Shown here: positions 16,850-46,598 of the stretch, one piece after another
Layout of the letters: the number at the start of each line of letters is the position of its first letter
Position numbering within the stretch: the first letter of the stretch is position 1
Assembly (NCBI GenBank): GCA_021730285.1
Contig: CP082962.1
Location: forward strand, 1-64,000
Direction: 5' to 3'
DNA: 64,000 nt
Source of the DNA: Desulfovibrio sp. JY
Lineage (GTDB): Bacteria; Desulfobacterota; Desulfovibrionia; Desulfovibrionales; Desulfovibrionaceae
Notes under the pieces: model-generated
The model's input: the letters and a program-made list of their open reading frames with translations, nothing else
What the model was told of the DNA's origin: nothing
The model's database searches: none
Translations under genes and position numbers: made by a program

Positions 16850-16909
16850 GGCGCGCTCCAAAGGAAACAATCGAGCGAAGCGGGGGGAGAAAAACGCCGC
16901 GAACGCGGC

Positions 16910-17674: not shown

Positions 17675-17702
17675 GACCTGCCTGTCCTTTCGCGCCGCCC
17701 GC

Positions 17703-20919: not shown

Positions 20920-21617
20920 CGCGCCGCATCCCCCTTCCGGCCCAGCCGGTAGTCTTCCAGAAACGCGGCCAGGGCTACATCCGCCTCCTCCCGCACCCGG
21001 AAGGTCTCTGTCTTGTCGCAGGGCAGCCCGGCCACCTTGGGCATGCAGGCAAACACCCGGCTCCAATGGGTCAGGTAGGCCGGAGCCGGCCGGTGGAGCT
21101 GCGGGATGAGCTGACGGTCCACGGTCTTGTGCAGCCAGATCGGGAAAAAGTCCCCGCCGCCGTCAACGCGCGCCATAAGCTGCGGATCGACGGGGCACAG
21201 GGGCAAAAGTCGCGCCGTAAGCGGGTCCTCGAGCAGGGTATGGTACATCTTCTCCAGCATCCGGCCGTCCAGAAAGGGCATGTTCCAGGGCAGAAAAAAG
21301 GTCAGGTCGGCCTGGGTTCCGGTCTCCAGGGTCAGCTGGAACTCCCGGAACAGGTTTTGCCCCTCGATATTGAGAAAATTGCAGGGATGGCCCCGGAAAA
21401 ATTCCGGGCAGGCCATGGTCCTGGCCCCGAGCCCCTCCCCCGCCGCCGCGATCGCGGGAACGTCGGTCACGACGCACACCGTATCCACGGCCCCGCTTTC
21501 CCGGCAATGTCGCGCCACCCGCGCAAGCAGCCCTTCCCCGGCGAGCCGCCGGTCCCACAGCGCCGCCGTGCCCGGATCGAGCCAGGACAAGGCCAGAATG
21601 ACGGCGGAGGTGTTCAT
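20916..21617 (-). CDS. nucleotidyltransferase-fold protein lacking the usual signature
   Basis: A 233-residue protein beginning SAVILALSWLDPGTAALW. It has the general layout of cytidylyltransferases for acidic sugars (NeuA/KdsB type): a Rossmann-like N-terminus, VDTVCVVTDVPAIAAAGEGL near 45-64 and FFLPWNMPFLDGRMLEKM near 110. However, the glycine-rich ARGGS-type substrate loop present in its neighbour is absent. It may be an inactive or diverged paralogue, or a partner subunit. It overlaps both neighbouring genes by four bases. Assignment is tentative. Confidence 0.55.
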   Translation of the reverse strand: MNTSAVILALSWLDPGTAALWDRRLAGEGLLARVARHCRESGAVDTVCVVTDVPAIAAAGEGLGARTMACPEFFRGHPCNFLNIEGQNLFREFQLTLETGTQADLTFFLPWNMPFLDGRMLEKMYHTLLEDPLTARLLPLCPVDPQLMARVDGGGDFFPIWLHKTVDRQLIPQLHRPAPAYLTHWSRVFACMPKVAGLPCDKTETFRVREEADVALAAFLEDYRLGRKGDAAR

Positions 21618-22321
21618 GGCGCCCCCTCCTCCCGCGCCCGGTCGGAAAGGTAATGCAGGGCAAAGGGGATGTCGTCCGCGTGCTGGAAATCGAAGCCCTC
21701 CCGGGACGACACCTCGTGGTAGCGCGTGACGATGTCGCCGGTATTGGGCATGGTATGATCGACCACGGCCGCGCCGACCATGCGGAAAAGCGGCGGATTG
21801 GCGTCCGGTGCCCGGTCCGTGTCGTTCCAGATCGGAAACAGCCGGCCATTGGCGGAATTTTCCAGGCACAGCCCGCCGGCCACCCGGCTGACGGCCTGGA
21901 CGCGAAACACATGGCCCCGGCTCCCGCGCAAGAGGTCATACATGGTCCGCAGGCTCTCCGGCCGCAGGCACACGCAGTTGCAATTGAGCGGCACCACGTA
22001 GTCGTAACGCCGGCTCAGATGCTCTTCCATTTGCTTGTCCTGGGTGCGGCACCACTCGCCGAACGTCCAGCTGCCGCCGAAATAATGCACCATGTCCCTG
22101 GGGCGCGGCAGGGCCACGGCCCCGGCCTCCCGGGCGACGTCGGCCAGTTGCGCGTCCTCGGTCCAGACGAAGACCGTGTCGATGAAACCGGCCTGCCGCA
22201 GGATGTCGATGGCCCAGGCCAGGACCGGCCTGCCGTGGAGCCGAAAGGCGTTTTTCCGGTAGAGCGTGGAACCGCCGCCCCGGGCCATGATGAGCCCCAC
22301 CACCAACGGATCAGTTGCCAT
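21614..22321 (-). CDS. CMP-sugar synthetase-like cytidylyltransferase (NeuA/KdsB fold)
   Basis: A 235-residue nucleotidyltransferase. The N-terminus carries the signature IMARGGGSTLYRKNAF (residues 10-25), followed by GRPVLAWAIDIL and DTVFVWTEDAQLADVAREAG, the classical arrangement of enzymes that load an acidic sugar on CMP. YDYVVPLNCNCVCLRPESL near 105-125 corresponds to the 'lots of possibilities' strand of the fold. It probably makes an activated sugar for the GT2 enzymes around it. It overlaps the upstream glycosyltransferase by 11 bases and the downstream gene by 4. Confidence 0.75.
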   Translation of the reverse strand: MATDPLVVGLIMARGGGSTLYRKNAFRLHGRPVLAWAIDILRQAGFIDTVFVWTEDAQLADVAREAGAVALPRPRDMVHYFGGSWTFGEWCRTQDKQMEEHLSRRYDYVVPLNCNCVCLRPESLRTMYDLLRGSRGHVFRVQAVSRVAGGLCLENSANGRLFPIWNDTDRAPDANPPLFRMVGAAVVDHTMPNTGDIVTRYHEVSSREGFDFQHADDIPFALHYLSDRAREEGAP

Positions 22322-23465
22322 GGCGACAAGCCTCCGGTGTCGGTTGCGTTCCCACGAAAAGCGTCCCCAGCCGCTGGCGCAGCCGGCTAAGCCAGATGCG
22401 GCCTGGAACGGGCGGCGGCGGCACAAAGGCGGTCTGGGGCGGATCGATGACCATGAGCCGGGCGTCAAAGGGACTGCGGTCATAAGCCAAGCGCGTCAGG
22501 CGGAACCGGACATAGCGGCGCAAAAGCCCCCGGCCGCAGGGCGCGAACGTGTCCGCGTGGTCCGTAAGAATCCGGCGCATCTCGTCGTAGCGGGCCAGCC
22601 GGTACAGCATGACCAGCACCCCCACCGGTCCGAAAATGGGCCTGAAGCGGTCGTAATGGGCCAGCACATGGGCGATCATGGCCCGGCGAAACGCGTCGTG
22701 GGGCGGATGTCTGGCCACGTCGCCCAGGGCGTTTATGGCCCCGACCAGCGGGTTGGCGCTGAAATTGTTCTCCCCATGGCGGCGGTAGCAGCCGTGGATG
22801 GTGGGAATGAGGATGGAATTGCCGACCTGCTGGCAGAAATGGGCGATGTAGTAGTCGGCGCAGATGGGAAAGGACACGCCGGGATCGGGCAGGATCAGGT
22901 CCAGGGTGGCCCGGCGAAAAACCATGGAACTGGCCGTGGCCCAGATCCACCAGGTTTTCTGGAACACCTGCTGGGGCACGTAGCGGTAAAACCCCTTGGC
23001 CAGATGGTCCGGGTGGTCGCCGCCGATGACCGCGCCGGAGGCGTCGATCTGGTACTGGTTGGAGCTCGTGAAGGCCACGGCCTTGGTGCCGAGGTGCACG
23101 GCCATGTGTGTTTCCAGGAAATCGGGCAGCAGCACGTCGTCGGCGTCGAGCATCATGACGAAGGGGCCCCTGGCCAGGGCCAGGCCGTCCCGAAACGCCT
23201 CCATCTGGCCGCCGTTGCCCTCCCGCCGGACGTAACGAAAGGCCGCCCCGCTCCCCGGCCCGGCCAGATAGGCGGTCAGGACCTCGTGCGTGTCGTCCGT
23301 GGAGGCGTCGTCCACGACAACGCACTCCCAGGCCGTGTAGGTCTGGCCGCGCACGGACTCCAGACACGCGACGATGAACCGGGCGTAGTTGTGGCTGGTG
23401 ACGATGATGGAAACGAGCGGCCGGTCGACGCCGACGGCTTCCAGTCTGGGATCCCATGCAAACAT
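22311..23465 (-). CDS. family 2 glycosyltransferase, paralogue B
   Basis: A 384-residue GT2 enzyme and first gene of the seven-gene minus-strand run. It has SIIVTSHNYARFIVACLESV near residue 20, VVDDASTDDTHEVL, GGQMEAFRDGLALARG, VMMLDADDVLLPDF near 112 and the C-terminal block ICADYYIAHFCQQ / TIHGCYRRHGENNF. It is closely related to the gene at 19774-20919. Proline-rich and basic segments close the protein (FVPPPPVPGRI). The start ATG at 23463-23465 has GGAGAGCCGG somewhat upstream. Donor and acceptor unknown. Confidence 0.87.
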   Translation of the reverse strand: MFAWDPRLEAVGVDRPLVSIIVTSHNYARFIVACLESVRGQTYTAWECVVVDDASTDDTHEVLTAYLAGPGSGAAFRYVRREGNGGQMEAFRDGLALARGPFVMMLDADDVLLPDFLETHMAVHLGTKAVAFTSSNQYQIDASGAVIGGDHPDHLAKGFYRYVPQQVFQKTWWIWATASSMVFRRATLDLILPDPGVSFPICADYYIAHFCQQVGNSILIPTIHGCYRRHGENNFSANPLVGAINALGDVARHPPHDAFRRAMIAHVLAHYDRFRPIFGPVGVLVMLYRLARYDEMRRILTDHADTFAPCGRGLLRRYVRFRLTRLAYDRSPFDARLMVIDPPQTAFVPPPPVPGRIWLSRLRQRLGTLFVGTQPTPEACRHGN

Positions 23466-23804
23466 GTTTTTTCCGGCTCTCCGACAAATATCCTGCCCCG
23501 TTGGGGCGCCCGTTCACGATAGCGCCAACGCCTTGGCCTGACGCGAAAATTTGCTTCCCGGAACATACGCCAGCCGGCTTCGGGGCGTAAAGGACCCGGG
23601 CACTGCGCCGCGCATGGCGGGGAAACCCTTTCCCGGCTCGTGGCGACCGGACCAGGTGGCGGCCGGCATCCCCCTGGACCAGACGGCGCTTTGTCCCGTA
23701 CATCCGGGGAGGCGTCCGACCCGCAACCGGGAAAAAACGGCCGTGATACGAACCGCATGCGCCGATCATGCCAAACTTTCGCCGGTCCCGCGAGGTGCCG
23801 CGCC
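23466..23804. other. divergent promoter region of the glycan island
   Basis: About 340 bases between divergent operons. No gene is convincing; a frame open from 23640 has low-complexity content before the real start at 23805. Promoters for both directions must lie here, but I cannot pick out clear -35/-10 pairs. Confidence 0.5.
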
Positions 23805-24635
23805 ATGCCGCAATCAGCCCCCTTCCCCACGGTGTCCGTGGTCGTGCCGGCCTACAACCAGGCCCGCTATTTGCGTGCCTGCCTGGATTCCCTGTGGTTT
23901 CAGGACTATCCGGCCCTGGAAATCGTAGTCGTGGACGACGCCTCGACCGACGACACCCGGGGCGAACTGGCCCACTTCCAGGACGACCTGGAACATCGCC
24001 AGACCTCGTTCGCCAGCCATTACGACGCGGACAACGACGTCATCGAGCGAACCCGGCACCCGGTCTACCGCACCGCCGGCCGCGCCTTGCGCATCGTGCG
24101 CCACGAGCGCAACCAGGGACTCGGCCAGACGCTCAATACCGGCATCGCCGCCAGTTCGGGCGACTACTGCACCTACGTGCCCTGCGACGATCTGGCCTAT
24201 CCCCACATGCTGGCCAGCCTCGTCGCCGCGCTTACGGAAAGCGGCGCGGATTTCGCCTACGCCGACATGCACATCGTGGACGACGCCATGCGCGTGCTGC
24301 GCCGCTTCGCCCTGCCGGACTACGGCTTTACGGCCTGCTTCGGGAACTGGTACCTGCTTGGCGTGTGCAAGCTCTACGCGCGCGCCCTGCACGACCGCTG
24401 CGGCCTCTACGACCCGGCGCTCCTGGCCCACGACCACGACATGTTCCAGCGCTTCGCCCTGGCCGGGGCGCGCTTCGTCCACGTGCCCCAAGCGCTCATG
24501 GCCGTGCGGGACCATCCCCAAAGCCGGCGGGTGGACATCCACGCCCCGGACAACTGGGCCCGGCTTCTGGAAGAGTCCAAGGCACTCGTGCGGCAAGCCC
24601 GGGCGGCCGTGGCCAGGGGGGACGTCGCGCCATGA
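23805..24635 (+). CDS. family 2 glycosyltransferase
   Basis: A 276-residue GT2 enzyme with a short C-terminus. It has SVVVPAYNQARYLRACLDSL near residue 10-30, EIVVVDDASTDDTRGEL, a long insertion around FASHYDADNDVIERTRH, NQGLGQTLNTGIAASSG and YVPCDDLAYPHM, where the usual DxD is CDD. ATG 23805 is chosen because GAGGTG lies seven bases upstream and the GT2 core begins right after. It overlaps the next radical SAM gene by four bases (ATGA). Probably adds a sugar in the same pathway as the divergent operon. Confidence 0.87.
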   Translation: MPQSAPFPTVSVVVPAYNQARYLRACLDSLWFQDYPALEIVVVDDASTDDTRGELAHFQDDLEHRQTSFASHYDADNDVIERTRHPVYRTAGRALRIVRHERNQGLGQTLNTGIAASSGDYCTYVPCDDLAYPHMLASLVAALTESGADFAYADMHIVDDAMRVLRRFALPDYGFTACFGNWYLLGVCKLYARALHDRCGLYDPALLAHDHDMFQRFALAGARFVHVPQALMAVRDHPQSRRVDIHAPDNWARLLEESKALVRQARAAVARGDVAP

Positions 24636-25858
24636 CCTTTCCCGGCGTCGCTTTTCACACGCCAGGACACCTCGGCCGCGGCGCGGTGCTCGACCTGGGG
24701 CTACGCTGCCCCCACTCCTGCGCCTTCTGCTATTACAGCTTCTTGGAAGGCGGACCGGAACAATTTTCCGCCCTGCGCCGGGCCAAAATGCGCGATACCG
24801 CCTCGTGCCGCGCCATCGTCCGGGCCATTGCCGCCAATGGGCTAACCCATCTCGACATCACCGGCGGCGAGCCGACCGTGCACAAGGGACTGCCGGAGAT
24901 CGTGTCCGAAGCCGTCGCCGCCGGGCTGGCCGTGCGCTGCATCACCCTCGGGCAGTTTCTCCTGCGCGAGCGCGACGGGCGCACGCTCCTCGACCGGCTC
25001 CTCGAAGCGGGCCTGACGGACCTGCTCTTTTCGCTCCATGCCGCCGACGCGGACGCCTTTGCCGCCACCTGCGGCGGGTCGCTCGCCACCCTGCTCGCGG
25101 CCATGGACGCCCTGGACGCGCGCGGCTTCCAGTACGCCTGCAACACGGTCATGCTGGAGCGAAACCGCCGCAGCCTCCCGGACATCGCCCGGCTGGCCGT
25201 CTCCCGAGGCGTCTACGCCGTCAACTTCATCGCCTTTAACGCCTACCATGCCTGGCGCGGCATGGAGCAAGCCGCCGCCCTGGCCGCGTCGTACACGAAA
25301 ATCCGGCCCTATCTGGAAGAAGCCGTGGCCATCCTGACCGCCGGCCGGGTCGCGGCCAACATCCGCTACGTGCCGTTGTGCGCCTTTCCGTCCCTGGCCG
25401 CCCATGTGGTCGGGGTCCTCGGCGTGCCCTACGACCCCTACGAATGGCGCAACCGCTGCCTCAACCACGACCAGCCGCCGGCCTACTGCGCCGAGCCCCT
25501 GGCAATTCCGGCAAGCGGCGTGCGCCCGGTTCATGCCTTCTCGCCGCTTGCCGAAACGCTCCCCGACGGCACAACGCTTTGCGGCATGCGCGGTGACCGC
25601 TTCAAGCTCTTCCCGGCCCAGTGCGCCGACTGCCCGGCCCGAGACGCCTGCGACGGCGTGGACCCGGTGTACCTGGGCCGCCACGGCGCCTCGGAACTCG
25701 CGCCTCTCCGCGAAACAACCGTCGGGCCGCTGCTCCGAAAACGCCTGGACTACCTCCCCGCCTTTCTGGTCAAGGTCCGCCCCGACGCCGACATGCGCGG
25801 CGCTATGCGTGAGGAATGGGGGGGAGGAAAAAAGGAAACTGGGGGGAAACCTTTCTGA
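24632..25858 (+). CDS. radical SAM enzyme, paralogue of 17703-18875
   Basis: A 408-residue radical SAM protein: CPHSCAFCYYSF near residue 26, DITGGEPTVHKG near 78, LLFSLHAADADAF near 135 and VNFIAFNAYHAW near 200. An auxiliary cysteine group lies near the C-terminus (CGMRGDRF, CADCPARDAC). It shares VNFIAFN and NIRYVPLCAFP with the enzyme at 17703-18875. The C-terminal tail turns Lys/Gly-rich, and the stop codon sits in the loop of a terminator hairpin. Probably acts on the glycan or a peptide made in this island; reaction unknown. Confidence 0.85.
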   Translation: MTFPGVAFHTPGHLGRGAVLDLGLRCPHSCAFCYYSFLEGGPEQFSALRRAKMRDTASCRAIVRAIAANGLTHLDITGGEPTVHKGLPEIVSEAVAAGLAVRCITLGQFLLRERDGRTLLDRLLEAGLTDLLFSLHAADADAFAATCGGSLATLLAAMDALDARGFQYACNTVMLERNRRSLPDIARLAVSRGVYAVNFIAFNAYHAWRGMEQAAALAASYTKIRPYLEEAVAILTAGRVAANIRYVPLCAFPSLAAHVVGVLGVPYDPYEWRNRCLNHDQPPAYCAEPLAIPASGVRPVHAFSPLAETLPDGTTLCGMRGDRFKLFPAQCADCPARDACDGVDPVYLGRHGASELAPLRETTVGPLLRKRLDYLPAFLVKVRPDADMRGAMREEWGGGKKETGGKPF

Positions 25859-26014: not shown

Positions 26015-28045
26015 CTAATGCTCTTCAATTCCCGGAAATTTCTCAACATCGGTAACGAGGCGGCGGTCGCGGGACAGGGGACGCTGCCGGTGGCGTTTGG
26101 CGAGGTGTTCCGACCACCAGCCGTGGTAATCGGCGAGGGACTGCACATCCAGGGCTTCGTGGTCCATGCGGGTGGCGACTTCCAGGTAGGCGTCGAGGTT
26201 GGTCAGGTCCGGTCGCGGCAGCCGGCCGGCTTTGAATGCTTCGAAGGCCTGGGCGTAGAGTTCTTCGAGCTTGCCGACGAGCAGCTGCATATTGAAGAGC
26301 ACGCAGGAATCGTGGGCGTCGCGCAGCTTTTCCCGCACGACCCGCAGGGCCTCGGGGTCCTTGCCGAAGGCCACGGCCCGCTGGATAAAGGCCTCGGGCG
26401 TCTCGCACACCATTTCCGGCAATCCGGCCGCGCGCACCAGGCTGCCGCAGACCCGGGAGGCGAACGATCGGCCGCTCAGGGTCAGGACCGGCACGCCCAT
26501 CCACAAGGCGTCCGAGGCGGTAGTGTGCGCGCCGTAGGGCGTGGTGTCCAAAAAGAGGTCCGCCAGGGGATAGCGGGCCAGATGGTTCGGATTCTTGACC
26601 TTGGGCGCGAACACGAGCCGTTCCCCGGCGATGCCGCGTCCGGCCGCGTAGTCGCGCAGCCGCTTCTCCACCGTCTCGGGGCCGCCGAGCAGCCATAGCA
26701 CGCTCCCCGGCACCTCGGCCAGGATCGACAGCCAGCGCTCGAAGGTGAACCGGTGCACCTTGTGCAGGCCGTTGAAGCAGCAATAGACCATGGCATCTTC
26801 CGGCAGGCCCGCCTCCGCCCGGGTGGGACGTTCCGGGGCCACGGTCCTTGTCCGGTTGCTCGGCTGGTAGCACGGCAGGCGCAGGACCTCTTCCGTATAA
26901 TAGAGCTCGTGATCCTTGGGGATGATCCAGTCGTCGGCGATGATGTAGTGATGGTAGGGGCTGGCCATGGTGCCGGGATAGCCCAGCCAGTTGATGATGA
27001 CCGGCGCGGGGCGCAGGGCGATCAATTTGAGGCGCGCGTCCCGGGTGTAGCCGTTGCAGTCGACCAGGATATGGATGCCGTCGTCGACGATTTTTTGGGC
27101 CGCCGCCGCATCGTCCAGGTGGCTGATCGACGTCCAGTGGTCGGCTTCGGCCTTGTACTTCGCGTGCAGGTCGTCGGTGGCCTCGATGCCGCAGTAGTAG
27201 GCGTGGACCTCCACCTTGCTCCTGTCGTGGAGCCCGAAGATTTCGGTCATGAGGTAGCCCATGGCGTGTTCGCGCATATCCGAAGAAAGGTAGCCGATGC
27301 GCAGCTTGCCGGTCTGCTCCATGGCCTTGGGCCAGGCGAAATGCGCCCCCTCGGGCTGGCCGACATCGAGCAGGTTGTACCTGGCGGCGATGGCCAACTG
27401 CAAAACGGGGTCGTCGGCAAAGGCCCCGGCGGAAAGGGGCGACATGCCCTCGAGGAGCAGCGTGCGGTCCACCCGCTCCGAGGGCAAAAGCACCGGCCAC
27501 TCGCATTGCCGCTGCCTAAGCGCGACCAGATGCTGGATGACCTCCCGCTGCTGTCGGTCCAGTTCCAGGCTCTCCCGCAGCATGTTTTCCGCGCTCTCGT
27601 CCTGGCTCAACGCCTCCAGCGCCCGGGCGCTCTGGTTGAGAGCCGTGGTCTTGTGCATGACGGACGTGCCGGTGACGCCCCCCATTTTGGCCAGGCCGGC
27701 CGACCACTGGATGACGGCCAGGCCGATCTTGCCCTGCCGCTCGTAGATGCGCCCGAGATTGATGTAGGCCGGCATGAATTCCGGATGTTGGGTGATGGCC
27801 TGCTCGAGGCATTCCCGGGCCGCGTCCAGCTTGCCGACGTCCTGAAGCGCGACCGAATAGTTGAAGAGCACCGCGTAGCGCAACGGATCGTCGGGATGGT
27901 GCCCCAGCCAGGCGGCGTAGACCGTCTCGATCGAGGCCGTCTGTCCGCTGCGCTTGAGGGTTTCCGCCGTCTTGATGAGGTCGGTGACACTAAACGAGGC
28001 CGTCATGGACTGGAGCAAGGCCGGAGACAGAATATCGTTGGTCAT
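26015..28045 (-). CDS. TPR O-GlcNAc-transferase-like glycosyltransferase (GT41, SPINDLY/OGT)
   Basis: A 676-residue cytoplasmic enzyme. Residues about 20-200 form tetratricopeptide repeats (for example YAVLFNYSVALQDVGKLDAA, AYINLGRIYERQGKI). The GT41 domain follows: RIGYLSSDMREHAMGYLM near 247, with His at the place of human OGT's H498; CNGYTRDARLKLIALRPAP; WLGYPGT; FNGLHKVH, with Lys at the place of human K842; LADLFLDTTPYGAHTTASD; and SFASRVCGSLVRAAGLPE. Family enzymes transfer one sugar from a nucleotide donor to Ser/Thr of proteins. It lies 100 bases downstream of the giant Ser/Thr-rich octapeptide gene, on the same strand, so that protein is the obvious candidate substrate. The ribosome-binding site is weak. 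Confidence 0.9.
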   Translation of the reverse strand: MTNDILSPALLQSMTASFSVTDLIKTAETLKRSGQTASIETVYAAWLGHHPDDPLRYAVLFNYSVALQDVGKLDAARECLEQAITQHPEFMPAYINLGRIYERQGKIGLAVIQWSAGLAKMGGVTGTSVMHKTTALNQSARALEALSQDESAENMLRESLELDRQQREVIQHLVALRQRQCEWPVLLPSERVDRTLLLEGMSPLSAGAFADDPVLQLAIAARYNLLDVGQPEGAHFAWPKAMEQTGKLRIGYLSSDMREHAMGYLMTEIFGLHDRSKVEVHAYYCGIEATDDLHAKYKAEADHWTSISHLDDAAAAQKIVDDGIHILVDCNGYTRDARLKLIALRPAPVIINWLGYPGTMASPYHHYIIADDWIIPKDHELYYTEEVLRLPCYQPSNRTRTVAPERPTRAEAGLPEDAMVYCCFNGLHKVHRFTFERWLSILAEVPGSVLWLLGGPETVEKRLRDYAAGRGIAGERLVFAPKVKNPNHLARYPLADLFLDTTPYGAHTTASDALWMGVPVLTLSGRSFASRVCGSLVRAAGLPEMVCETPEAFIQRAVAFGKDPEALRVVREKLRDAHDSCVLFNMQLLVGKLEELYAQAFEAFKAGRLPRPDLTNLDAYLEVATRMDHEALDVQSLADYHGWWSEHLAKRHRQRPLSRDRRLVTDVEKFPGIEEH

Positions 28046-28088: not shown

Positions 28089-28126
28089 CCCCGATGCGGG
28101 GCGACGCCGCCTGGAAACGGCGTCGC
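28089..28126. terminator. hairpins between the giant gene and the OGT-like gene
   Basis: GCGACGCCG (28101-28109) pairs with CGGCGTCGC (28118-28126) around eight bases; next to it CCCCG-ATG-CGGGG can fold. No U-run follows on the minus strand, so this is more likely an attenuator or mRNA-stability structure than a full stop, allowing graded expression of the downstream enzyme. Confidence 0.5.
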
Positions 28127-28145: not shown

Positions 28146-31100
28146 TTAAGCCTTGGCGTTTTCCACCGCTTCAAGCTGTGCTTCCGTCATAGAGGCCAAT
28201 TGCGTCGTCGTAAAGGCATTGAGCTGGGTTGCGTTGAGCGCGTCGATCTCTTCCGTGGTCAGGGCCGCGATGGTCGTGGTCGAGAGCCTGGAGATGGTGG
28301 TCGTGGTCAGGCCGCCGAGCTGCACCCCGGACAGGGAGCCGATCTGGGTCGCGGTCAGGGAACCGAACTGCTCGGCGCCCATGGCCCCGATCTGGGTGGA
28401 GGTGAGGATTGCCAGTTGGGCCGCCGTGAGGTTCTGCATTTCTGTTGCGGTCAGGCTGGAGATCTGGGTTTCGTCCATGGACGCGACCTGGGTCGTGGAA
28501 AGCGCCTGCAACTGCTCGGTGCTGAGCGACCGCAGCTGCACGCGGTTGAAGCCGTCGATCTGGGTTGTGGTCAGGGCCGCCATCTGCGTGGTCGACAGGG
28601 AGTCGATCTCGGTGGTGGTCAGAGCCCCGATCTGGGTGGAGGTCAGCGCGCCGAACTGGGTGGTGGACATCTTCGCGATCTGCGTCTCGGTCAATCCCTT
28701 GATGCCGTAGACCGACAGCGCCGCGACCTGGCTGGTGGACAGGGCCGCGAACTGGGTATCGGTCAGCGCGCCCACCTGGGTCGCGGTCAGGCCGCCCATC
28801 TCGGTCGCGGTCAGCATCTGCACCTGCGCGGTGGTCAGGCTGGCCAGCTGGGTGGCGGAGAGGCCGGAGACGCCGGTTTCGGAAAGGCTCTTGAACTGGG
28901 TCGCGGTCAGGCTGGACAGCTGCGTCGTGCTGAAGCCGGCGATGGCCGTGGCGGCAATGGCCCCGATCTGCTCGGTGGAAAGCGCCGCCAGCTGGCTGGT
29001 GGACAGGCCGGACAGCTGGGTCGCGGTCAGGCCGGAGATGCCCGTGGTCGAAAGCGCCGCCAACTGCCTGGTGGTCAGTTCGTCGATCTGGGTCGTGGAA
29101 AGGGCCGCGACCTGCGAGGACGTGAGCCCCGAGAGTTCCGTGCTGGTCAGGACCGCAAGCTGCGTGGCCGTCAGGCTGGCGATGGCCGTGGTCGAAAGCG
29201 CGCCCATGCCGGTGGCCGAAAGGCCGCTCAACTGGGTCGTGGACAGGGCCGCGATGCCCGTGGTCGTCAGTCCCGAGAGCGCCGTGGTCGAAAGCGCCGC
29301 CATTTCCGTGGTCGTAAGCGCGGCCAGCTGCTGGGTGGACAAGGCCGCGATCTGGTCGGCGGTCAGGCCGGAAACGCCCGTGGTCGAGAGGCTCGCGATC
29401 TGGGTCGGGGTCAGCGCCGCCAGCTGGGTCGGGGTCAGCGCGCCGATCTCGGAGGACGTCAGGCTCGCGATCTGGGTCGTGGTCAGCGCCGCCAGGCGGG
29501 TCGCGGACAGGCCCGCGATCTGGGTGGTGGTCAGCGCGCCAAGCTGCGTGGCGGTCAGGGCCGCGAACTGCTTGGTGCTCAGGGACTCGATTTCGGTCGC
29601 GGTCAGCCCGGCCATGGCCGTGGTGGAGAGGTGCGCGACCTGGGTCGTGGTCAGCGAGGCCAGCTGGGTCGTGGTCATCGCCGCCAACTGGGTCTCGGTC
29701 AGGCCCGACACCTGGGTCGTGGTCAACGCCGCCGTCTGCGTGGTCGAGAGCGCGGCCAGCTCGGTCGTGGTCAGCGCGCCGATCTGGGTCGTGGTCAGCC
29801 CGGCCAGCTGGGTCGCGGTCAGCCCGCTTATCCGCGTGGGATCAAGCGCGGCGATCTGGGTCGTGGTCAGCCCGGCCAGCTCGGTCGTGGTCAGGGCCGC
29901 GAACTGGCTATCGGACAGTCCGGCCAACTGGGTCGCGGTCAGCCCGGCCATGGCCGTGGCGGCGAGCGAAGCCAGCTGGGTGGTGGAAAGCGACGTCAGC
30001 TGCGTCGTGGTGAGGGACGCCAGTTGGGTGGAGGTGAGCCCGCCCATCTCGGTGGCCGTCAGCTGCCCCAACCGGGTGGTGGTCAGGGAAGCCAGCTGGG
30101 TCTCGGTCAAGGCGCCGATCTGCGTCGTGGTCAGCGCTTGCAGCTGCCGGGTGGTCAGCGAAGCCAGCTCGGTCGTCGTGAGCCCGGCCACGGCCGTGGT
30201 GGAAAGCGAGGCCAGCTGCGTCGTGGACAGGGCGGCCAGCTGTTCGGCGTCAAGCGCCGCCACCGCGTCGCTGGTCAGCGCCCCGACCTGGCTGGTGGTC
30301 AGCGCCGCCATTTGGGTGGCGGAAAGCGAGGCGATCTGGGTCGCGGTCATGGCCGCGATAGCGGCAGTGGAAAGCGCCGCCAGCTGCGCCACGTCCAGGA
30401 CGTCCAGCTGGGTCGTGGTCAGGGCCGCGGCCTGGGTGGCGGTCAGGCCGCCGATCTGGGTCGCGGTCAGCGAGGCCAGAAGCGTGGTGGACAGCGCAGC
30501 GATGTCCTCGGCCGAAAGCCCCCGGACGGCGGCCACGGAGAGCGCCGTCAACTGGCTTTCCGACAGGGCGGCCAGCTGGTCGGCGGTCAGGGCCGTGATC
30601 TGGGTGGCGGAGAGGCCGCCGATCTGGGTCAGGCTCAACTGGGCGATCTGGGTCGCGGACAGCGCCTGCACCTGGGTTTCGCTGAGCCCTTCGATCTGGG
30701 TCGTGGTCAGGGCCGAAAGCTGCGCCCGGCTCAATGCCGCCAGTTCGGTCGCCGTCAGGCCGCTTATGGCCGTTTCGGCAATCGCCGCGATCTGCGTCGT
30801 GGACAAGGCGGCGAGCTGCGCCGTGGACAGGGAGGCCAGCTGGCTATCGGTCAGGCCGGAAATCTCGGTGGTGGTCAGGGCGGCCATCTGGGTCGCCGCA
30901 AGCCCGGCCATGGCCGTGGTGGTCAGGCCGCCGACGGCCGTTTCGGAAAGAGCGGCCACCTGCTCCGTGGACAGCCCGGCCAGCTGGGTCGAAGTCAGGG
31001 ACGCCGCCTGGGACCGCGTCAACCCGGCCATGGCCGTGGTGGTCAGGCTCCCCCACTGGGTCGCGGCCAGGGACGCCAGCTGCGCCGTGGAGAGCGCCGC

Positions 31101-34100
31101 CATTTGCGCGGCCGTCAGGGCCGCCGTCTGCCGGGTCGAAAGCGCCGCGATCTCGGTCGCGGTCAGGCCGCTTACGGCCGTGGTGGAAAGCGACGCCACC
31201 TGGGTGGCGGCCAGCCGTTCCAGCTGGGTTTCCCGCAACGCGCCCACCTGGGTCGAGGTGAGGCTCGCCATGGCGGTCATGGTGAAGGCGTCGATCTGGG
31301 ACGTGGTCAACGCCGCGATCTGGGACGTGGTCAGGTCGCCGATCTGGGTGGTGGAAAGCGCCCGGATCTGCGTCGTGGTCAGGGCTTCGATCTGGGTCTG
31401 CGTCAACGAGGCGATCTGGCTGTCGCTTAACGCCGCGATCTCGGTGGCGGAAAGCGCCGCCACCTGCTCCGTGGACAGCGAGGCCACCTGGGTGGTGGTC
31501 AGGCCGCGCATGGCCGCGGCGGAAAGCGCCGCCAGCTGCTCCGTGGTCAGAAGGCCCAGCTGGGTGGTGGTCATGGCCCCGATCTGGGTACTGGCCATGC
31601 CCGACAACGTGGTGGTGGAAAGCGCGGCCAACTCGGTTTCGGTCAGGGACGCGACCTGGCTGGTGGTCAGGGCCGAAAACTGGGTGGACGTCAGCGCGGA
31701 AAGCTGGGAGCCGGACAGGGAGGCCATCTGCGTGGCGGACAGGGCCCTCAGCGTGGTCGTGGACAGCCCCGCGATCTGCGTGGAGGAAAGCGCCGCCAGT
31801 TGCTCCGGAGACATGGCGGCGAACTCGTCGGCCGTCAGGCCGGCCATGGCGGTCACGCCGAGAGCGGCGATCTGGGTGGTGGCGAGCGTCGCGATCTGGT
31901 CCGTGTCCAGGGCGGCCAGCTGGGTGGCGGACAAGGACGAAAGCTGGGTCGTGGTCAGGGCGGCCAGCTGCGTCGCGTCGAGGCCGGAAAGCGCCGAGGC
32001 GGCAAGCGCGCCGATCTGCGCCGCGGTCAGGGCCGCGATCTGCTTCGTGGTGAATTCGCCGAGATCGGTGCTGGTAAGCGAGGCGATCTGGGTGGTGGAA
32101 AGCGAGGCGATTTGGGTCGTGGTCAGCTTGGCAATCTGGGTCTCGTCGAGGCCGGAGACGCCGTTGCCGCTCAAGGCCGCCAGCTGGGTGGTGGAAAGCG
32201 AAGCCAGCTGGGTCGTGGTCAGCGACGCCGCCTCGGTGGCGGTGAAGGCCGCAAGCTGGGTGGCGGTCAGGCCCCGCAGTTGGGATGTCGCCAGCGAAGC
32301 GATCTGGGTGGCGGAAAGACCGGCAAAGGCCTTCGTGGTCAGCGCCCCGATCTGGGTGGAAGAAAGCCCCGAAAGCTGGGTGGCGGAAAAAGCCGCCATG
32401 TCCGTCGCGTCGAGGCCGCTTACGGCGTCGGCGGAAAGCGCGGCAAGCTGGGTGGACGTCAGGGCCGAAAGCTGGGTGCTTTCCAGGGCCGCGATTTCCG
32501 TACTGGTCAGCCCGCCGAGCTGGGTGGTGGTCAAAGCGGCCATCTGCGTGACGGCCAACCCTTCCAGCGCGGTTTCGGAGAGCGCCGCGAACTGGGTCGC
32601 GGTCAGGGCCGCAAGCTCGGTCAGCGTCAGTTCGGACACGTCCGTGCTGGTAAAGCCGCTGATCTGGGTGGTGGTCAGGGCGGCCAGCTGGGACGAGGTC
32701 AGGGCCGCGACCTGGGTCCTGGTCAGGGCGCTGACGCCGGTGCTGGAAAGCGACGCGATCTGGGTGGTGGTCAGGGACGCCAATTGCGTATCCGTCAGCG
32801 AGGCCAGCGTGGTCGTGGTCAGCGCGTTGAGCTGGGTCGCGGCCAGCCCGCGAAGCTGGGAGGTTTCAAGCGAGGCGATCTGGGTCGCGTCGAGTCCGGT
32901 CAGGGCGCTCGTGGTCAGGGCCGCGATCTGGCTGGAGGAAAGCCCGTCCAGCTGGGTCGTGGTCAGGGACGCCAGTTCGGTCTTGCTGAGGCCGCCGATG
33001 GCGTCGGTGGAAAGCGCCGAAAGCTGGGTGGAAGAAAGCGCCGCCAGCTGGGTGGTGGAAAGGGCCGCGATCTCCGTGGCGGTAAGGCCCGACAGCTGGG
33101 TCGCGGTCAGGGCCGCCAGCTGGGTCGCGGTCAGCCCTTCCAGGGCGTCCTCTGACAGGGCCGCCAGCTGGGTGGAGGTCAGTGCGGCCAGTTCGGTCAG
33201 GGTCAGCTCGGACACGTCCGTGCTGGTCAGGCCGTTTACCTGGGCCACGGACAGCCCGGCCAGCTGCCGCTCGCTCAGGGAGGCGATCTGGGTGGCGGTC
33301 AGGGCGCTGACCGCGGTGGCGGTCAGTCCCCGCAATTGCGTGCTGGACAGGGCGGAAAGCTGTTCCTCGGTCAGGGCCCGGACTTCCGTTTCGGTCAGCG
33401 CGCCCATCTGGGTCTGGGTCAGGCCGTGCAGCTGGGTGGTGGAAAGCGACGCCATCTGGGTTTCGGAAAGACCGGCCAGGGCGGTGGTGGAAAGCGCGGA
33501 CATCTGCCCCGCCGTCAGCCCGGCCAACTGCTCCGTGGTCAGCGCGGCAAGCGCGTCGCGGCTGAGCCCGCTTATCGCGCCGGTCGCCAGCGCCGCCAGC
33601 TGGGTGGCGGCCAGCGCGGCCAGTTGCGAGGTCTCCAGGGAATTGAGCTGCGTCGCGGTCAGGCCCCTGGCCTGCCTGGCGGTCAGCGCCGCGATCTCTT
33701 CCGTGGTCAGCCCCTGCAGGGCGTCGGTGGAAAGCGCGGAAAGCTGGGTGGAGGTCAGGGCGGCCAGTTCGGTCAGGGTCAGTTCGGCCACGTCCGTGCT
33801 GGTCAGCCCGCTGAGCTGGGTGGTGGTCAGGGCGGAAAGCTGGGTGGTGGTCAGGGCCGCCATCTGCGTCGACGTCAACACGCTCAGATCCGTGCCGCTT
33901 AAGGCCTTGGTCTGGGCCAGGGTCAGGGCGGCCAGCTGCTCCGTGGAAAGCGCGGCGGCCACCGTGGTCGTCAGCCCGGCCACCTGGGCCGTGGTCAGGC
34001 CGCGCAGCTGGGTCGTGGACAGGTCCGCGACCTGATCGGCGGTCAGGCCGGAAAGCGCCGTGGTCGTCAGGGCGGAAAGCTGGGTGGTGGTCATCGCCGC

Positions 34101-37100
34101 AAGCTGGGTCTCGGACAGCGCCCCCACCTGGGTCGCGGTCAGGCCGCTAACGGCGGAGGTCGAGAGGGCCGCGACCTGTTCGGCGGTCAGGCTCCCGACC
34201 TGGGTGGTGGTCAAGGCGGCGCTCTGGGTCTTGCCCAGGCCCCGCAGCTGGGTCTCGGTCAGGGCGGCCAGTTGTTCGCGAGACAGCGCCTCGATAGCCT
34301 CGGCGGTCAGGGCTCCGATCTGGGTGGACGTGAGGGCGGAAAGCACCGTGAGGGTCAGTTCCTTCATGTCCGTGGCCGAAAGTCCGCTTATCTGCGTGGC
34401 GGTCAGCGCCGCGATCTGCGTGGCGGTCAAGGTTCCGAGCTGGGTGGCGGTCAGTTCGCTCACGCCGGTGCTGGTCAGGCCCCGCAGCTGCGTCACGGTC
34501 AGGGCGGCCAGCTGTTCGGCGGTCAGATCGCCCACTGCCGTGGAGGTGATCGCCGCCAACTGGGTGGAGGTGAGCCGGGAAAACTGGGTCACGGAAAGGC
34601 TCGAAAGCTGGGTGCCGTCAAGCGCCGCGATCTGGGTGGCCGCCAGGGCCGAAATCTGCGTGGTGGCGAGCATGGCCAGTTGCGATTCGGAGAGCGAATC
34701 GATCTGGTCGGTGGTCAGGGCCGCAATCTGCGTCGTGCGCAGCGACCTCATCTGTTCGGCGGAAAGCGCTTCCAGTTGGTCCTCGCCAAGGGCCCGGATG
34801 GCCGTGGTGGTGAGGCTTCGCAGCTGGGTGGTGGTCATCGCCTCCAACTGGGCGTCAGTCAGCGCCGCAGCCTGCGTGGCCGTCAGGGCGCCTATCTCGG
34901 CGGTGGAAAGCGCCGCGATCTGCGTGGTCGTCAACTGCGCGATCTGGTCCTCGCCAAGCCCCTTGATGCCGGCGGCGGAAAGCCCCGCGAGCTGGGTCGT
35001 GGTCAGGGCCGCCAGCTGCTCGTCCGTGAACCCGGACACGGCCGAGGCGGTCAGGGCGGAAAGTTGCGTCGCCGACAGCGCGGCCAGCACGGTCAGGCTC
35101 AATTCACCGATGTCGGTGCTGGTGAGGGACTTGAGCTGGGTGGTGGTCAGCGCGGCCAGCTGGGTTTCGGTCAGCGCCTCGAGCTGCGTCGTATCGAGCT
35201 GGCTTATGGCCGTGCCGGTCAGCGCCTTGAGCTGGTTGAGGCTCAGCGACGCCAACTGGGTTTCGTCCAGGGACTCGATGACGGTCTGCGAAAGCGAGGC
35301 CATCTGCACCGCGCTCAGGCCGTCGAGCTGGGTGGTGGTCAGCACCTCGACTTCGGCGGCGGTCAGGCCCTTCAGCTGGGTCTTATTCATGGAGCCGAGC
35401 TGGGTTTCGCTCAGGGCGGCGAATTGCTCGGTGGACAGGTTGCCGATGTCCGTGCTGCTCAGGCCCCGAATCTGGGTCGTGGTCAGCCCGGCGATCTGGG
35501 TGGTGGTCAGGGCCGAAATCTGGGTGTCGGCCAGCGCCCCGAGCTGCGTGCTGGTGAGCCCGGCCATCTGCGTGGCCGAAAGCAGGGCCACCTGCTCTTC
35601 GCTGAGCCCGGCCAGGGCGGCGGCGGTGATGTACTTGATCTGGGTCGCGGTCAGCGCGGCCAGCTGGGTCAGGCTCAATTCGCTGATGTCGGTGCTGGTC
35701 AGGGACTGGATCTGGGCCGTGGTCAGGGAGGCCACCTGGGCGATGGACAGGACCGTGAACTGATCCTCGCTGAGGCTACTCAGCGAGGCGCCGGAAAGGC
35801 CCTTCAGCTGCGTTTCGGTCAGCGCCCCCAGTTCGTCGGCGGTCAGGGCCTTGGCCGCCTTGGTCGTCAGGTAGGCCAGCTGGGTCGCGGTCAGCACGCC
35901 GATCTGGGTCGTGGTGAGAAAGGGAATCTGATCCTCGGTGAGGCCCCGTATCTGCGCGCCGCGAAGGACCGACAGCTGTTCGGTGGTCAAAGCCTGGATC
36001 TGGGCCGTGGACAAAAGCGAAACGCCCGTGACCGAAAGCCCCGTCAGGGCCGTGGTGCTTATGGCGGCGATCTGGGTGGTGGAAAGGGCCGCGATCTGCG
36101 TATCGGCCAGGACCGAAAGTTCCGCCTTCGTCAACCCGGCGATCTGGGTCGTGGTCAACGACGCGATCTGTTCCTCGCTGAGGCTCTTGACGGCCGCCGC
36201 GTTCAGGGCCGCGAGTTGGGTGGACGAAAAGACGGACAGATCGTCCATGGACAGCTCATCGATATCGGTGCCGGTCAAGCCGCTGAGCTGCTTTTGCGTC
36301 AACGCCGCCAACTGGGTTTCGGTCAGGGCCTCGAACTGCGTCATGGTCAGCACGCTGACGCATTTGCTGTTGAGCCCCTGTATCTGCGTTTCGGTCAGCG
36401 ACGCCAGCTGGGTTTCCGTCAAGACGGCGGCCTGGGTCGTTTGCAGGTACGCCAGCTGGGTCGCGGAGAGGCCGGCCAGCTGGGTCGTCGTCAGGTACGC
36501 CATCTGCTCCGTGGTCAGATACTTGATCTGCGCGTTGGTCAACGCCCCGATCTGGGTCTGGGACAAGGCGGCGATCTGGGTATCGGCCAGACTGGAAACG
36601 ACGTCCTTTGTGAGCCACCGGAGGGCCGAGGTATCCAGGGCCGCGATGTTTTCCGCCGACAGATATTCCGCCTGGGCCGTGGTCATGGAGGCAAGCTCGG
36701 TCAGGGTCAGGGCGGCCGCCTGGGTGGTGGACAGGCTCGCGATCTGCTCGGTCGTGAGGTATCTGAACTGATTGCCGGTCAGGGAGGCGATCTGCGTCGT
36801 GGAAAGCGCGGCCAGCTGGGTGGTGGAAAGCGCGGCGACGCACGTGGTGGAGAGGTAGGTGAACTGCTTTTGCGACAGGGCGGACAGTTGCGTCGTGGAA
36901 AGGGCCTTGAGCTGCGTCGCGGAAAGCGAGGCGATCTGGGTCGCACGCAGGGCCTGCATCTGCGTGGTGGCCAGGGAGGCGATTTGCGTGGGCGTGAGCG
37001 CCGCGACCTGGGCCCGCGTCAGCTCCGTGATGTCGGTTTCGGTCAGCCCGGCAAGCTGGGTGCTGGTCAGGGAGGCGATTTCCGTGGTGGTGAAGGTCGA

Positions 37101-37334
37101 CACCTGGGACCGCCCCAGGCCGGAGAACTGCGCGGCGCTCAAATTGACGATCTGATCCACGGTCAGGGCAGCGGCCTGGGCCGATGTCAGCCAGGACATT
37201 TCCGTCGTGGTGAAGGCTTCGACCTGCGTTTCCAGCAACGCGGAAAATCCGGTGGCGGCCAGGCTTCGAAACGCCGTCCGGGACAGATTCGAGATTTCCT
37301 CTGCGCTGTACGATGTGATGAGTGATACAGTCAC
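28146..37334 (-). CDS. giant Ser/Thr-rich octapeptide-repeat protein (~3,062 residues)
   Basis: Built almost wholly from about 380 tandem octapeptides, consensus [ST]TQ[LI]A[AGS]L[ST]. The repeats start by residue 10 (SAEEISNL, SRTAFRSL, AATGFSAL) and run to the last dozen residues (TEAQLEAVENAKA). Each unit carries hydrophobics at positions 4 and 7 and usually two to four Ser/Thr. Marker octads with TDxxEL (such as STDVSELT) recur at multiples of 24 units. No signal peptide, anchor, LPxTG or RTX motif; only two cysteines noticed (NSKCV, TTCVA). I chose GTG 37334 (AAGGAG nine bases upstream) because the repeats follow directly; ATG 37424 would add 30 non-repeat residues. Probably a long solenoid or fibre. 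Glycosylation by the OGT-like neighbour is inferred; I recognise no named family. Confidence 0.88.
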   Translation of the reverse strand: MTVSLITSYSAEEISNLSRTAFRSLAATGFSALLETQVEAFTTTEMSWLTSAQAAALTVDQIVNLSAAQFSGLGRSQVSTFTTTEIASLTSTQLAGLTETDITELTRAQVAALTPTQIASLATTQMQALRATQIASLSATQLKALSTTQLSALSQKQFTYLSTTCVAALSTTQLAALSTTQIASLTGNQFRYLTTEQIASLSTTQAAALTLTELASMTTAQAEYLSAENIAALDTSALRWLTKDVVSSLADTQIAALSQTQIGALTNAQIKYLTTEQMAYLTTTQLAGLSATQLAYLQTTQAAVLTETQLASLTETQIQGLNSKCVSVLTMTQFEALTETQLAALTQKQLSGLTGTDIDELSMDDLSVFSSTQLAALNAAAVKSLSEEQIASLTTTQIAGLTKAELSVLADTQIAALSTTQIAAISTTALTGLSVTGVSLLSTAQIQALTTEQLSVLRGAQIRGLTEDQIPFLTTTQIGVLTATQLAYLTTKAAKALTADELGALTETQLKGLSGASLSSLSEDQFTVLSIAQVASLTTAQIQSLTSTDISELSLTQLAALTATQIKYITAAALAGLSEEQVALLSATQMAGLTSTQLGALADTQISALTTTQIAGLTTTQIRGLSSTDIGNLSTEQFAALSETQLGSMNKTQLKGLTAAEVEVLTTTQLDGLSAVQMASLSQTVIESLDETQLASLSLNQLKALTGTAISQLDTTQLEALTETQLAALTTTQLKSLTSTDIGELSLTVLAALSATQLSALTASAVSGFTDEQLAALTTTQLAGLSAAGIKGLGEDQIAQLTTTQIAALSTAEIGALTATQAAALTDAQLEAMTTTQLRSLTTTAIRALGEDQLEALSAEQMRSLRTTQIAALTTDQIDSLSESQLAMLATTQISALAATQIAALDGTQLSSLSVTQFSRLTSTQLAAITSTAVGDLTAEQLAALTVTQLRGLTSTGVSELTATQLGTLTATQIAALTATQISGLSATDMKELTLTVLSALTSTQIGALTAEAIEALSREQLAALTETQLRGLGKTQSAALTTTQVGSLTAEQVAALSTSAVSGLTATQVGALSETQLAAMTTTQLSALTTTALSGLTADQVADLSTTQLRGLTTAQVAGLTTTVAAALSTEQLAALTLAQTKALSGTDLSVLTSTQMAALTTTQLSALTTTQLSGLTSTDVAELTLTELAALTSTQLSALSTDALQGLTTEEIAALTARQARGLTATQLNSLETSQLAALAATQLAALATGAISGLSRDALAALTTEQLAGLTAGQMSALSTTALAGLSETQMASLSTTQLHGLTQTQMGALTETEVRALTEEQLSALSSTQLRGLTATAVSALTATQIASLSERQLAGLSVAQVNGLTSTDVSELTLTELAALTSTQLAALSEDALEGLTATQLAALTATQLSGLTATEIAALSTTQLAALSSTQLSALSTDAIGGLSKTELASLTTTQLDGLSSSQIAALTTSALTGLDATQIASLETSQLRGLAATQLNALTTTTLASLTDTQLASLTTTQIASLSSTGVSALTRTQVAALTSSQLAALTTTQISGFTSTDVSELTLTELAALTATQFAALSETALEGLAVTQMAALTTTQLGGLTSTEIAALESTQLSALTSTQLAALSADAVSGLDATDMAAFSATQLSGLSSTQIGALTTKAFAGLSATQIASLATSQLRGLTATQLAAFTATEAASLTTTQLASLSTTQLAALSGNGVSGLDETQIAKLTTTQIASLSTTQIASLTSTDLGEFTTKQIAALTAAQIGALAASALSGLDATQLAALTTTQLSSLSATQLAALDTDQIATLATTQIAALGVTAMAGLTADEFAAMSPEQLAALSSTQIAGLSTTTLRALSATQMASLSGSQLSALTSTQFSALTTSQVASLTETELAALSTTTLSGMASTQIGAMTTTQLGLLTTEQLAALSAAAMRGLTTTQVASLSTEQVAALSATEIAALSDSQIASLTQTQIEALTTTQIRALSTTQIGDLTTSQIAALTTSQIDAFTMTAMASLTSTQVGALRETQLERLAATQVASLSTTAVSGLTATEIAALSTRQTAALTAAQMAALSTAQLASLAATQWGSLTTTAMAGLTRSQAASLTSTQLAGLSTEQVAALSETAVGGLTTTAMAGLAATQMAALTTTEISGLTDSQLASLSTAQLAALSTTQIAAIAETAISGLTATELAALSRAQLSALTTTQIEGLSETQVQALSATQIAQLSLTQIGGLSATQITALTADQLAALSESQLTALSVAAVRGLSAEDIAALSTTLLASLTATQIGGLTATQAAALTTTQLDVLDVAQLAALSTAAIAAMTATQIASLSATQMAALTTSQVGALTSDAVAALDAEQLAALSTTQLASLSTTAVAGLTTTELASLTTRQLQALTTTQIGALTETQLASLTTTRLGQLTATEMGGLTSTQLASLTTTQLTSLSTTQLASLAATAMAGLTATQLAGLSDSQFAALTTTELAGLTTTQIAALDPTRISGLTATQLAGLTTTQIGALTTTELAALSTTQTAALTTTQVSGLTETQLAAMTTTQLASLTTTQVAHLSTTAMAGLTATEIESLSTKQFAALTATQLGALTTTQIAGLSATRLAALTTTQIASLTSSEIGALTPTQLAALTPTQIASLSTTGVSGLTADQIAALSTQQLAALTTTEMAALSTTALSGLTTTGIAALSTTQLSGLSATGMGALSTTAIASLTATQLAVLTSTELSGLTSSQVAALSTTQIDELTTRQLAALSTTGISGLTATQLSGLSTSQLAALSTEQIGAIAATAIAGFSTTQLSSLTATQFKSLSETGVSGLSATQLASLTTAQVQMLTATEMGGLTATQVGALTDTQFAALSTSQVAALSVYGIKGLTETQIAKMSTTQFGALTSTQIGALTTTEIDSLSTTQMAALTTTQIDGFNRVQLRSLSTEQLQALSTTQVASMDETQISSLTATEMQNLTAAQLAILTSTQIGAMGAEQFGSLTATQIGSLSGVQLGGLTTTTISRLSTTTIAALTTEEIDALNATQLNAFTTTQLASMTEAQLEAVENAKA
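28160..37310. repeat. 24-bp tandem repeat array coding for octapeptides
   Basis: About 380 degenerate 24-bp units. In the plus-strand view the Gln codon (ctg) falls on positions divisible by 24 wherever I checked (28344, 30000, 31464, 31488, 37152), so the register is unbroken for at least 8.8 kb. TDxxEL marker units sit at 32065, 32641, 33217, 33793 and 34369, then 35113, 35689 and 36265, all exactly 576 bp apart within each block. Confidence 0.9.
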
Positions 37335-37455
37335 GTTGGATTTCTCCTTGCCTTTTGTATTGCATGGCAGCGATGCGCTGCCCGACTTGTCCTTGTTGCC
37401 GCCATGGTCGCCCAATGCCGACATGCAGGAAATTTCTTCCCGGCAACGGTTAATG

Positions 37456-43709: not shown

Positions 43710-44225
43710 CCCCACCCTCCCCTCGTTTGACGACATCCGTCAGCCGGCCCTGCATTCTCCCTGTCCCGCATCGCGTCCGATGCCTCGCACCGGACACGAC
43801 ACCTATTTTTCACCTATAGAATATTTGGAACCAGTCCACAACACGTTCCGGAAAAAATCGCCGTTCCAAAGGCCGGATTCACCGGTAAGAGGCGGAAAAG
43901 ACCCGAACGGCGAAGCCGCCGGGGCCGGTTGCCAACCGTAAAAACGATATAGGGGAAAAGGAGCGACAGGCCTGAGAGGACAACAGGCACGGCCCTTCGA
44001 AAAGCCGCCCGAACCGTCTCGTCACGGTGCGGGCAAAGCCCGGAAAGCCTCCGGATCGAAAGGAGCGGACGGCACGGGCCGGGCCGGCAAGCCGGTCCAC
44101 CTTACCTTCCCCCCGCTTTTTTGGTAGGCTGATCCTCGGGGCGTCCCCGGAGTCAGACGGCTCCCGCTTTGGAGATACCCCGAGGACCGCCGGCCAGGCC
44201 GGACCGAAGCGCCAGGAAGCTGCCT
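43710..44225. other. divergent regulatory gap with inverted repeats
   Basis: About 515 bases without a gene, between the hybrid kinase (minus) and the sigma-54 activator (plus). GGAAC (43828-43832) and GTTCC (43845-43849) form a small inverted repeat near an AT-rich stretch. TCCTCGGGG (44133-44141) and CCCCGAGGA (44178-44186) form a 9-bp inverted repeat 40 bases before the activator ATG, perhaps an operator or leader structure. Confidence 0.45.
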
Positions 44226-46190: not shown

Positions 46191-46220
46191 GGAGGGGGAG
46201 AGGAGGCGCCTCCGGCGGCC

Positions 46221-46282
46221 AGGGGGAAACTTTTTGAAAAAAGTTTCCCCCTGGACCCCCTTCAAAAACTTTCAATGGGGTT
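46221..46282 (+). terminator. hairpin element, copy C (downstream of the sigma-54 activator)
   Basis: AGGGGGAAACTTTTT (46221-46235) pairs with AAAAAGTTTCCCCCT (46238-46252), followed by GGACCCCCTTCAAAAACTTTCAATGGGGTT. The flank matches copy A (25875-25905) closely. It lies 30 bases after a stop codon, in the gene's direction, as copies A and B do. Confidence 0.75.
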
Positions 46283-46463
46283 AAGGGGTGGAGCTTCACC
46301 CGATATGGTGAGGAAGACTTCTTCATACGGGAAGACAAGAAGCCAGTTCTTGTCCCCTGGGAGTGCGGCGGTCGATTGCATCTTGAGCCAGTGACGGGAT
46401 TGCTCCCCGGACAAGATGCAGTTGGAGCTTCCCGCCCGGCGGGCCTGTACCGCAACGGTTGTT

Positions 46464-46598
46464 CCCCGGGCATGAGGCCTACGACCAGGGTCGGCGGATG
46501 CGAAAGAAATGGCCCCCGAGCATGAGACTTACGACCAGGGCCGGTGGATTTGAACGGGATTCCCCGAGTATGAGACAGACAACCAGGGCCGGCGGGGG
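46464..46598. repeat. three direct copies of a ~37-base unit
   Basis: Copies start at 46464, 46514 and 46562. The shared core is CCCCG(G/A)G(C/T)ATGAG, then ACCAGGG(T/C)CGG(C/T)GG. Spacing is 50 and 48 bases. They are not CRISPR-like: copies differ from one another and gaps are about 12 bases. Origin unknown. Confidence 0.75.

Follow-up and report, generated by a model that had tools for sequence, protein, structure and literature searches.

A giant octapeptide-repeat protein of Desulfovibrio sp. JY, conserved in length and paired with a gene for an OGT-like GT41 enzyme

The stretch of DNA analysed here (the window, 64,000 nucleotides of contig CP082962.1 from Desulfovibrio sp. JY) encodes a giant protein consisting almost purely of octapeptides. 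This array protein is real, conserved and structurally exceptional, and it has a well-supported enzyme partner, an OGT-like protein of glycosyltransferase family 41 (GT41) encoded downstream of it. The explanation that we favour, at slightly short of an even chance, is a single-chain, two-faced rod of fixed length that would receive O-linked sugar from its partner in the cytoplasm and serve as a structural fibre, likelier at the cell surface than inside.

The array gene lies on the minus strand and reads from a GTG codon at 37334 to a stop codon at 28146-28148.

28146-37334, minus strand: coding sequence for the 3062-aa ALTTAQ-repeat protein, beginning with GTG and assigned from the ORF, Pfam, the period and the conserved start
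28167-37310, minus strand: 381 whole octads (residues 9-3056) in a single register, counting from a conserved Tyr
37344-37349, minus strand: AAGGAG in the sequence, resembling a ribosome-binding site, nine bases 5' of the GTG

The reading frame stays open beyond the GTG up to 37460; the start was nevertheless placed at 37334 because the conserved N-terminus of the relatives fits this codon. Octad 1 is formed by residues 1-8, ahead of the conserved Tyr, so that the 3062 aa contain 382 octads in one unbroken register, the final whole octad stopping six residues short of the stop codon. The counts of residues and octads agree with the preliminary description, which had seen about 380 units in a ~3,060-residue protein made almost only of octapeptides. 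The motif proposed there, [ST]TQ[LI]A[AGS]L[ST], holds as a consensus, with a mean match of 5.6 of 8 positions compared with 1.85-1.95 in 20 residue shuffles, but only 24/382 units match it at all eight positions. Residue identity is 0.394 at lag 8 and falls to 0.05-0.12 at lags other than multiples of 8; one octad position is Leu in 91% of cases. In the window protein a phase-tracking script found the register free of slips beyond the start codon; in the complete Solidesulfovibrio relatives it assigned slips only before or at the start or within the last five residues.

An assembly artefact is an unlikely source of the array, judging by the sequences, because other assemblies contain relatives of comparable length and the DNA copies within the array have diverged from one another. 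The repetitive, biased composition (Thr plus Ser 31%, two Cys, six Pro, net charge -127) might point to a repeat expansion without selected function. We consider this highly improbable in view of the unbroken register, the fixed lengths described below and the diverged DNA copies, and also of the dN/dS values, which are 0.28-0.38 for the whole protein and 0.02-0.06 for octad position 4 (four pairs). The array is under purifying selection, with position 4 nearly frozen.

A search with Pfam models identified PF20080 (ALTTAQ repeat, ALTTAQ_rpt) in 64 stretches of the window protein with 1104.6 bits (E=0; gathering cut-off 26.4 bits), and PDB 9zem (HeliScrew4) matched in a profile search (8.4e-29) and with phmmer (1e-17). 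The earlier statement that no named family was recognised is contradicted by both matches. The Pfam name applies to the window protein by score although the 38 positions of the model hide the 8-residue unit; a 38-residue unit is not present, the super-period being about 27.4 residues. Octad-like sequence is common to the window protein, Caulobacter proteins and other members of the PF20080 family. HeliScrew4, a 120-aa chain of 15-octad size, shares the sequence pattern L[ST]xxQ[IV]AA with the window protein, from which it differs in being short and in having Pro at the octad start. Literature searches returned no functional description or partner for the ALTTAQ repeat and no paper on HeliScrew4 or 9zem, and the accessible part of PMC12775518 mentions neither screw, octapeptide nor ALTTAQ. 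So far as these searches reached, the family is named yet undescribed.

PF20080 was detected at E 0.001 in 14/199 genomes of the Desulfovibrionaceae, 13 of them over the cut-off, and at E 1e-6 in 14/348 genomes of the class and 2/395 genomes sampled from the phylum. Scanning named genomes revealed 45 PF20080 loci in Alpha- and Betaproteobacteria, Magnetococcales, MAGs labelled Marinimicrobia, Verrucomicrobiales, Geobacteraceae and others. A link to magnetosomes, prompted by the carriers Solidesulfovibrio, Paramagnetospirillum and Magnetococcales, was dropped because Caulobacter, Rhizobium and Roseomonas carry the array too.

Two parts of the array were modelled with AlphaFold2.

33039-33758, minus strand: 30-octad block, residues 1193-1432, with one predicted helix of 4-6 residues per octad
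36615-37334, minus strand: N-terminal 240 residues, the conserved start region, with predicted short helices

The 30-octad block (pLDDT 94.4) showed one short helix per octad, and in the N-terminal region (pLDDT 91.7) a helix of at least four residues was found in 28/30 octads. AlphaFold2 can be over-confident on repeats, as part of PMC11795689 reports for beta-solenoids. The predicted array is a well-supported alpha-solenoid, in which each octad would form one very short helix and a turn. The models, together with the period of 3.43 octads described below, back the earlier suggestion of a solenoid; that it represents a new class was partly borne out by structural comparison. Foldseek against PDB chains released up to 8 April 2026 gave only weak matches, mainly and at the top mesothelin, at a TM of only about 0.2-0.4; 9zem was absent from the matches listed. 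Comparison of the models with ARM/HEAT alpha-solenoids yielded weak TM and middling Z values, and a viral fold library weak matches only (best E 3.3e-6, TM 0.30); no PHROGs match that would indicate phage origin was found for the 800 C-terminal residues of the array or the GT41 protein. Mesothelin is described in part of PMC10035497 as a right-handed solenoid whose 24 short helices are arranged in nine layers. Unlike the array model, with its one helix per 8 residues, mesothelin and ARM/HEAT proteins have 2-3 longer helices per 30-40-residue repeat and no octad register. A leucine-rich repeat reading was rejected, as the beta-strand per repeat is absent from both AlphaFold2 models; the LRR matches in sequence and profile searches look like composition matches.

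The order of the octads contains a further period. When each protein was treated as a sequence of octads, the power spectrum computed from residue identities had a sharp peak at 0.292 per octad, corresponding to 3.425 octads or 27.4 residues, in all five proteins first tested (peak power 106-206, shuffle maxima 60-75). In a wider set of 51 arrays, many of them related and thus not independent, the top peak fell at 0.288-0.296 per octad in 41 and elsewhere in 10, and 40 of the 41 exceeded all 100 shuffles. This set leaves out L069 (same record as L031), L105 and L106 (too short) and L111 and L113 (no array ORF). The best lags of the window protein (24, 48, 34, 14 and 10 octads) are near-whole multiples of 3.43. 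Some relatives have super-periods ranging from 3.38 to 3.45 octads, which argues against the period being no more than the echo of a duplication of 24 octads. We infer that the super-period of about 3.43 octads is the solenoid turn, with about 105 degrees per helix. An 8-residue register is kept over some 3000 residues together with a superhelical period in the sequence.

Residues follow this period around the turn. Gln occupies octad position 4 in 84-96% of octads at one turn phase and in 30-38% at another (four proteins), and Ala and Gly are common where Gln is low. The number of acidic residues per octad varies around the turn from 0.22 to 0.98 in the window protein and, in three relatives, from 0.18 to 0.78 (L031), 0.15 to 0.66 (L032) and 0.15 to 0.46 (L040). 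The phasing of position 4 and of the acidic residues implies a stripe along the rod, and this charged stripe may serve the side-by-side packing of rods.

Eleven complete arrays from two genera have only three lengths: 3062 aa (four arrays: the window, G005, G122 and G273), 2814 aa (six: G002, G003, G006, G007, G012 and G013) and 2761 aa (one: G001). Counted from the conserved Tyr, these lengths are 3054, 2806 and 2750 aa. The arrays of G009, G010 and G011 are split or cut at contig ends and were left out of the count. Pairwise identity within the 2814 aa class is 55 to 95% at zero offset. The window protein and L040, which belong to different genera, show 43% identity at zero offset, hardly over the repeat background; at position 4 the best match is at zero offset, where identity reaches 0.64, the remaining offsets between -60 and +60 averaging 0.47. 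Length is kept to the residue between proteins sharing about half their residues, which makes selection on the length of a repeat protein testable. In L040 and L068, both genomes of the second genus, we observed a shift of -2 near residue 2860 and of +2 near 3035, the total still being 3062.

The differences between the length classes are 31 and 7 octads, or 9.04 and 2.04 turns. Since MAFFT on whole arrays scatters the gaps, we aligned the arrays octad-wise, and the window protein showed gaps of 7, 48 and 24 octads against each of three proteins of the 2814 class (3/3). Because such an alignment is built to prefer in-phase gaps, independent support for whole-turn steps comes from the total lengths alone. 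In the Roseomonas group, five arrays measure 36.57, 52.61, 52.61, 80.61 and 94.61 turns, with a nearly equal turn fraction; that of a further member, L080 (101.06 turns), does not fit. L085, without the N-terminal anchor, was unused in this comparison, as were most other relatives, anchored at places that are perhaps not homologous. Whole-turn steps may have been selected or may result from recombination joining like blocks.

The second gene lies directly downstream of the array gene on the same strand.

26015-28045, minus strand: OGT-like protein of 676 aa with TPR and glycosyltransferase family 41 parts, located 100 bp past the stop codon of the array gene
28101-28126, minus strand: 11-bp hairpin without a T run in the gap between the array and GT41 genes

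The 676-aa protein contains a TPR domain and a GT41 catalytic region, both lobes of which align with human OGT (6.2e-93) and Xanthomonas XcOGT (2.5e-85). Twelve of the 14 genomes of the genus carry the array, and the same 12 carry the GT41 ortholog at 67-100% identity; of the two array-less genomes, G004 has GT41 relatives of at most 38% and G008 (89% complete) has none. The GT41 gene lies beside the array, downstream, in 11/13 fetched loci, the other two being contig pieces with the opposite end of split arrays. Other neighbours of the array are kept in the close relative G005, and elsewhere only partial or generic matches were found. Among 33 named relatives with enough downstream sequence, a GT41 gene was present at the locus in 20; in L088, L089 and L101 it lies upstream of the array. 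Two tandem GT41 genes adjoin the array in Roseomonas-type loci (L074, L077, L079, L085, L089, L101). A complete module with a GT41 protein 63% identical was observed in L076, a MAG labelled Verrucomicrobiales, and reflects either transfer between phyla or a mislabelled contig.

The array-GT41 gene pairing is well supported. To our knowledge, the substrates of OGT-like GT41 enzymes in bacteria are mostly open, and the pairing names one candidate. The partner resembles eukaryotic OGT/SPINDLY and XcOGT in having TPRs plus both catalytic lobes; unlike them it adjoins a Ser/Thr-rich giant, which suggests, as far as gene order can tell, a dedicated substrate. With 951 Ser/Thr and six N-sequons in the 3062 residues, O-glycosylation is the likely reaction. 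Alternatively, the GT41 protein might leave the rod unmodified, the genes being linked by regulation or the enzyme acting on other proteins. A GT41 gene was not seen at the locus in 13 of the 33 named relatives, and the hairpins in the array-GT41 gap could uncouple the two genes; the exact co-occurrence in 14/14 genus genomes and an adjacency that is kept while most other neighbours vary make this alternative improbable. Hairpins without a T run were also observed in the gap of L031, L033, L038 and L041. Among 12 loci folded, intergenic hairpins were strong in several, not all, with weak to moderate shuffle z-scores, and no terminator-like site was found between the two genes.

By analogy, the pairing of a giant structural protein with a GT41-family enzyme of its own would belong to the kind of system known from HMW1/HMW1C. 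In Haemophilus, as described in part of PMC3983070, the gene for the giant protein HMW1 adjoins that for a cytoplasmic GT41-family enzyme, as it does in the window. HMW1C has an AAD domain and acts as an N-glycosyltransferase, whereas the window partner is of the TPR type and scored 18 bits with the NCBIfam N-glucosyltransferase model NF049992 (cut-off 1000). Many N-X-S/T sequons would be expected in the substrate of an HMW1/HMW1C system, and the array has six; no two-partner pore or signal was found for it. New compared with HMW1/HMW1C are the other enzyme subtype, the helical octad solenoid and the fixed length.

In the favoured explanation the two genes form a module, gene 1 encoding the rod and gene 2 the OGT-like TPR-GT41 enzyme. 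The rod would be a single-chain alpha-solenoid with about 3.43 octads per turn, its 3062 aa making about 111 turns and, assuming a rise of 9-11 A per turn as in ARM/HEAT-type solenoids, a length of roughly 100-120 nm. This length would be fixed and altered by near-whole turns, which would keep both ends and the charged face aligned. The enzyme would O-glycosylate Ser/Thr of the rod in the cytoplasm, and the glycosylated rods, packed sideways via the charged face, would have a structural role as fibres or spacers, most probably displayed on the surface of the cell. A more specific version, which we put forward tentatively, is a rod of quantised length, a single polypeptide of about 380 short helices that evolves by whole turns, is covered in O-linked sugar added by an OGT-like enzyme of its own and associates laterally to form a glycosylated sheet, bundle or ruler. 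If true, such a rod would represent a novel type of molecular ruler or fibre and supply an evident dedicated substrate for a bacterial OGT-like enzyme. The array is also a naturally occurring template for making very long helical rods from a single chain.

The same glycosylated rod of fixed length could instead stay in the cytoplasm, as an internal scaffold, a ruler of ~100 nm or a means of ordering partners along its charged face. We regard this as rather unlikely, though the first alternative to weigh. Inspection of the window protein by eye agreed with the preliminary description that it lacks a signal peptide and an anchor, no export signal was seen, and the length is constant between species. 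OGT-like enzymes work in the cytoplasm. HMW1C does likewise, according to part of PMC3983070. The module is also present in G001 without a type I adaptor. Against a purely internal rod stand the Cys-poor, acidic composition, which fits exported proteins too, and features of the relatives. The betaproteobacterial L104 ends in a FrpC-like self-processing domain (6sjw, 3.9e-37), the C-termini of L088, L090, L099, L107 and L108 resemble it by eye, and HlyB-like ABC genes, scoring below the NCBI cut-off, lie near four arrays (L074, L079, L095, L110). The FrpC self-processing module is a domain of type I-secreted proteins, as stated in part of PMC7078468.

These relatives, and a type I HlyD in 13/14 genomes of the genus, also raise the question whether in this genus, too, the rod leaves the cell by type I secretion and forms an adhesin-like fibre, which we consider improbable. 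The window protein has no RTX or self-processing C-terminal domain: Pfam gave repeat-type matches only, and its last 300 residues no NCBIfam match. The scanned ORFs of the window included no recognisable type I secretion gene; the window's own genome has HlyD, its best HlyB match being partial. The carrier G001 lacks a match to type I HlyD, and its HlyB matches are partial and of MsbA level, so an obligatory type I exporter in Solidesulfovibrio is not supported, and G004 and G008 possess HlyB and HlyD yet lack the array. Overall, the surface reading of the glycosylated rod ranks modestly above the cytoplasmic one.

Further repeats and ORFs were observed in the window. A 50-bp tandem repeat of 2.8 copies (46462-46595) lies near an ORF without a Pfam match (44022-46265). 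Plus-strand ORFs without Pfam matches (15769-22390) are flanked by a double ABC transporter (11763-15722) on one side and a radical SAM protein (23768-25858) on the other. In Caulobacter-type loci (L081, L097, L102), short ALTTAQ proteins come after a gene whose products fall into a single BLAST cluster; Pfam classes those of L081 and L102 as Hsp70-like. An Hsp70-family ORF is also present in the window (3832-5202, minus strand), 23 kb from the array, and shows 26% identity to the Hsp70-like protein of L102.
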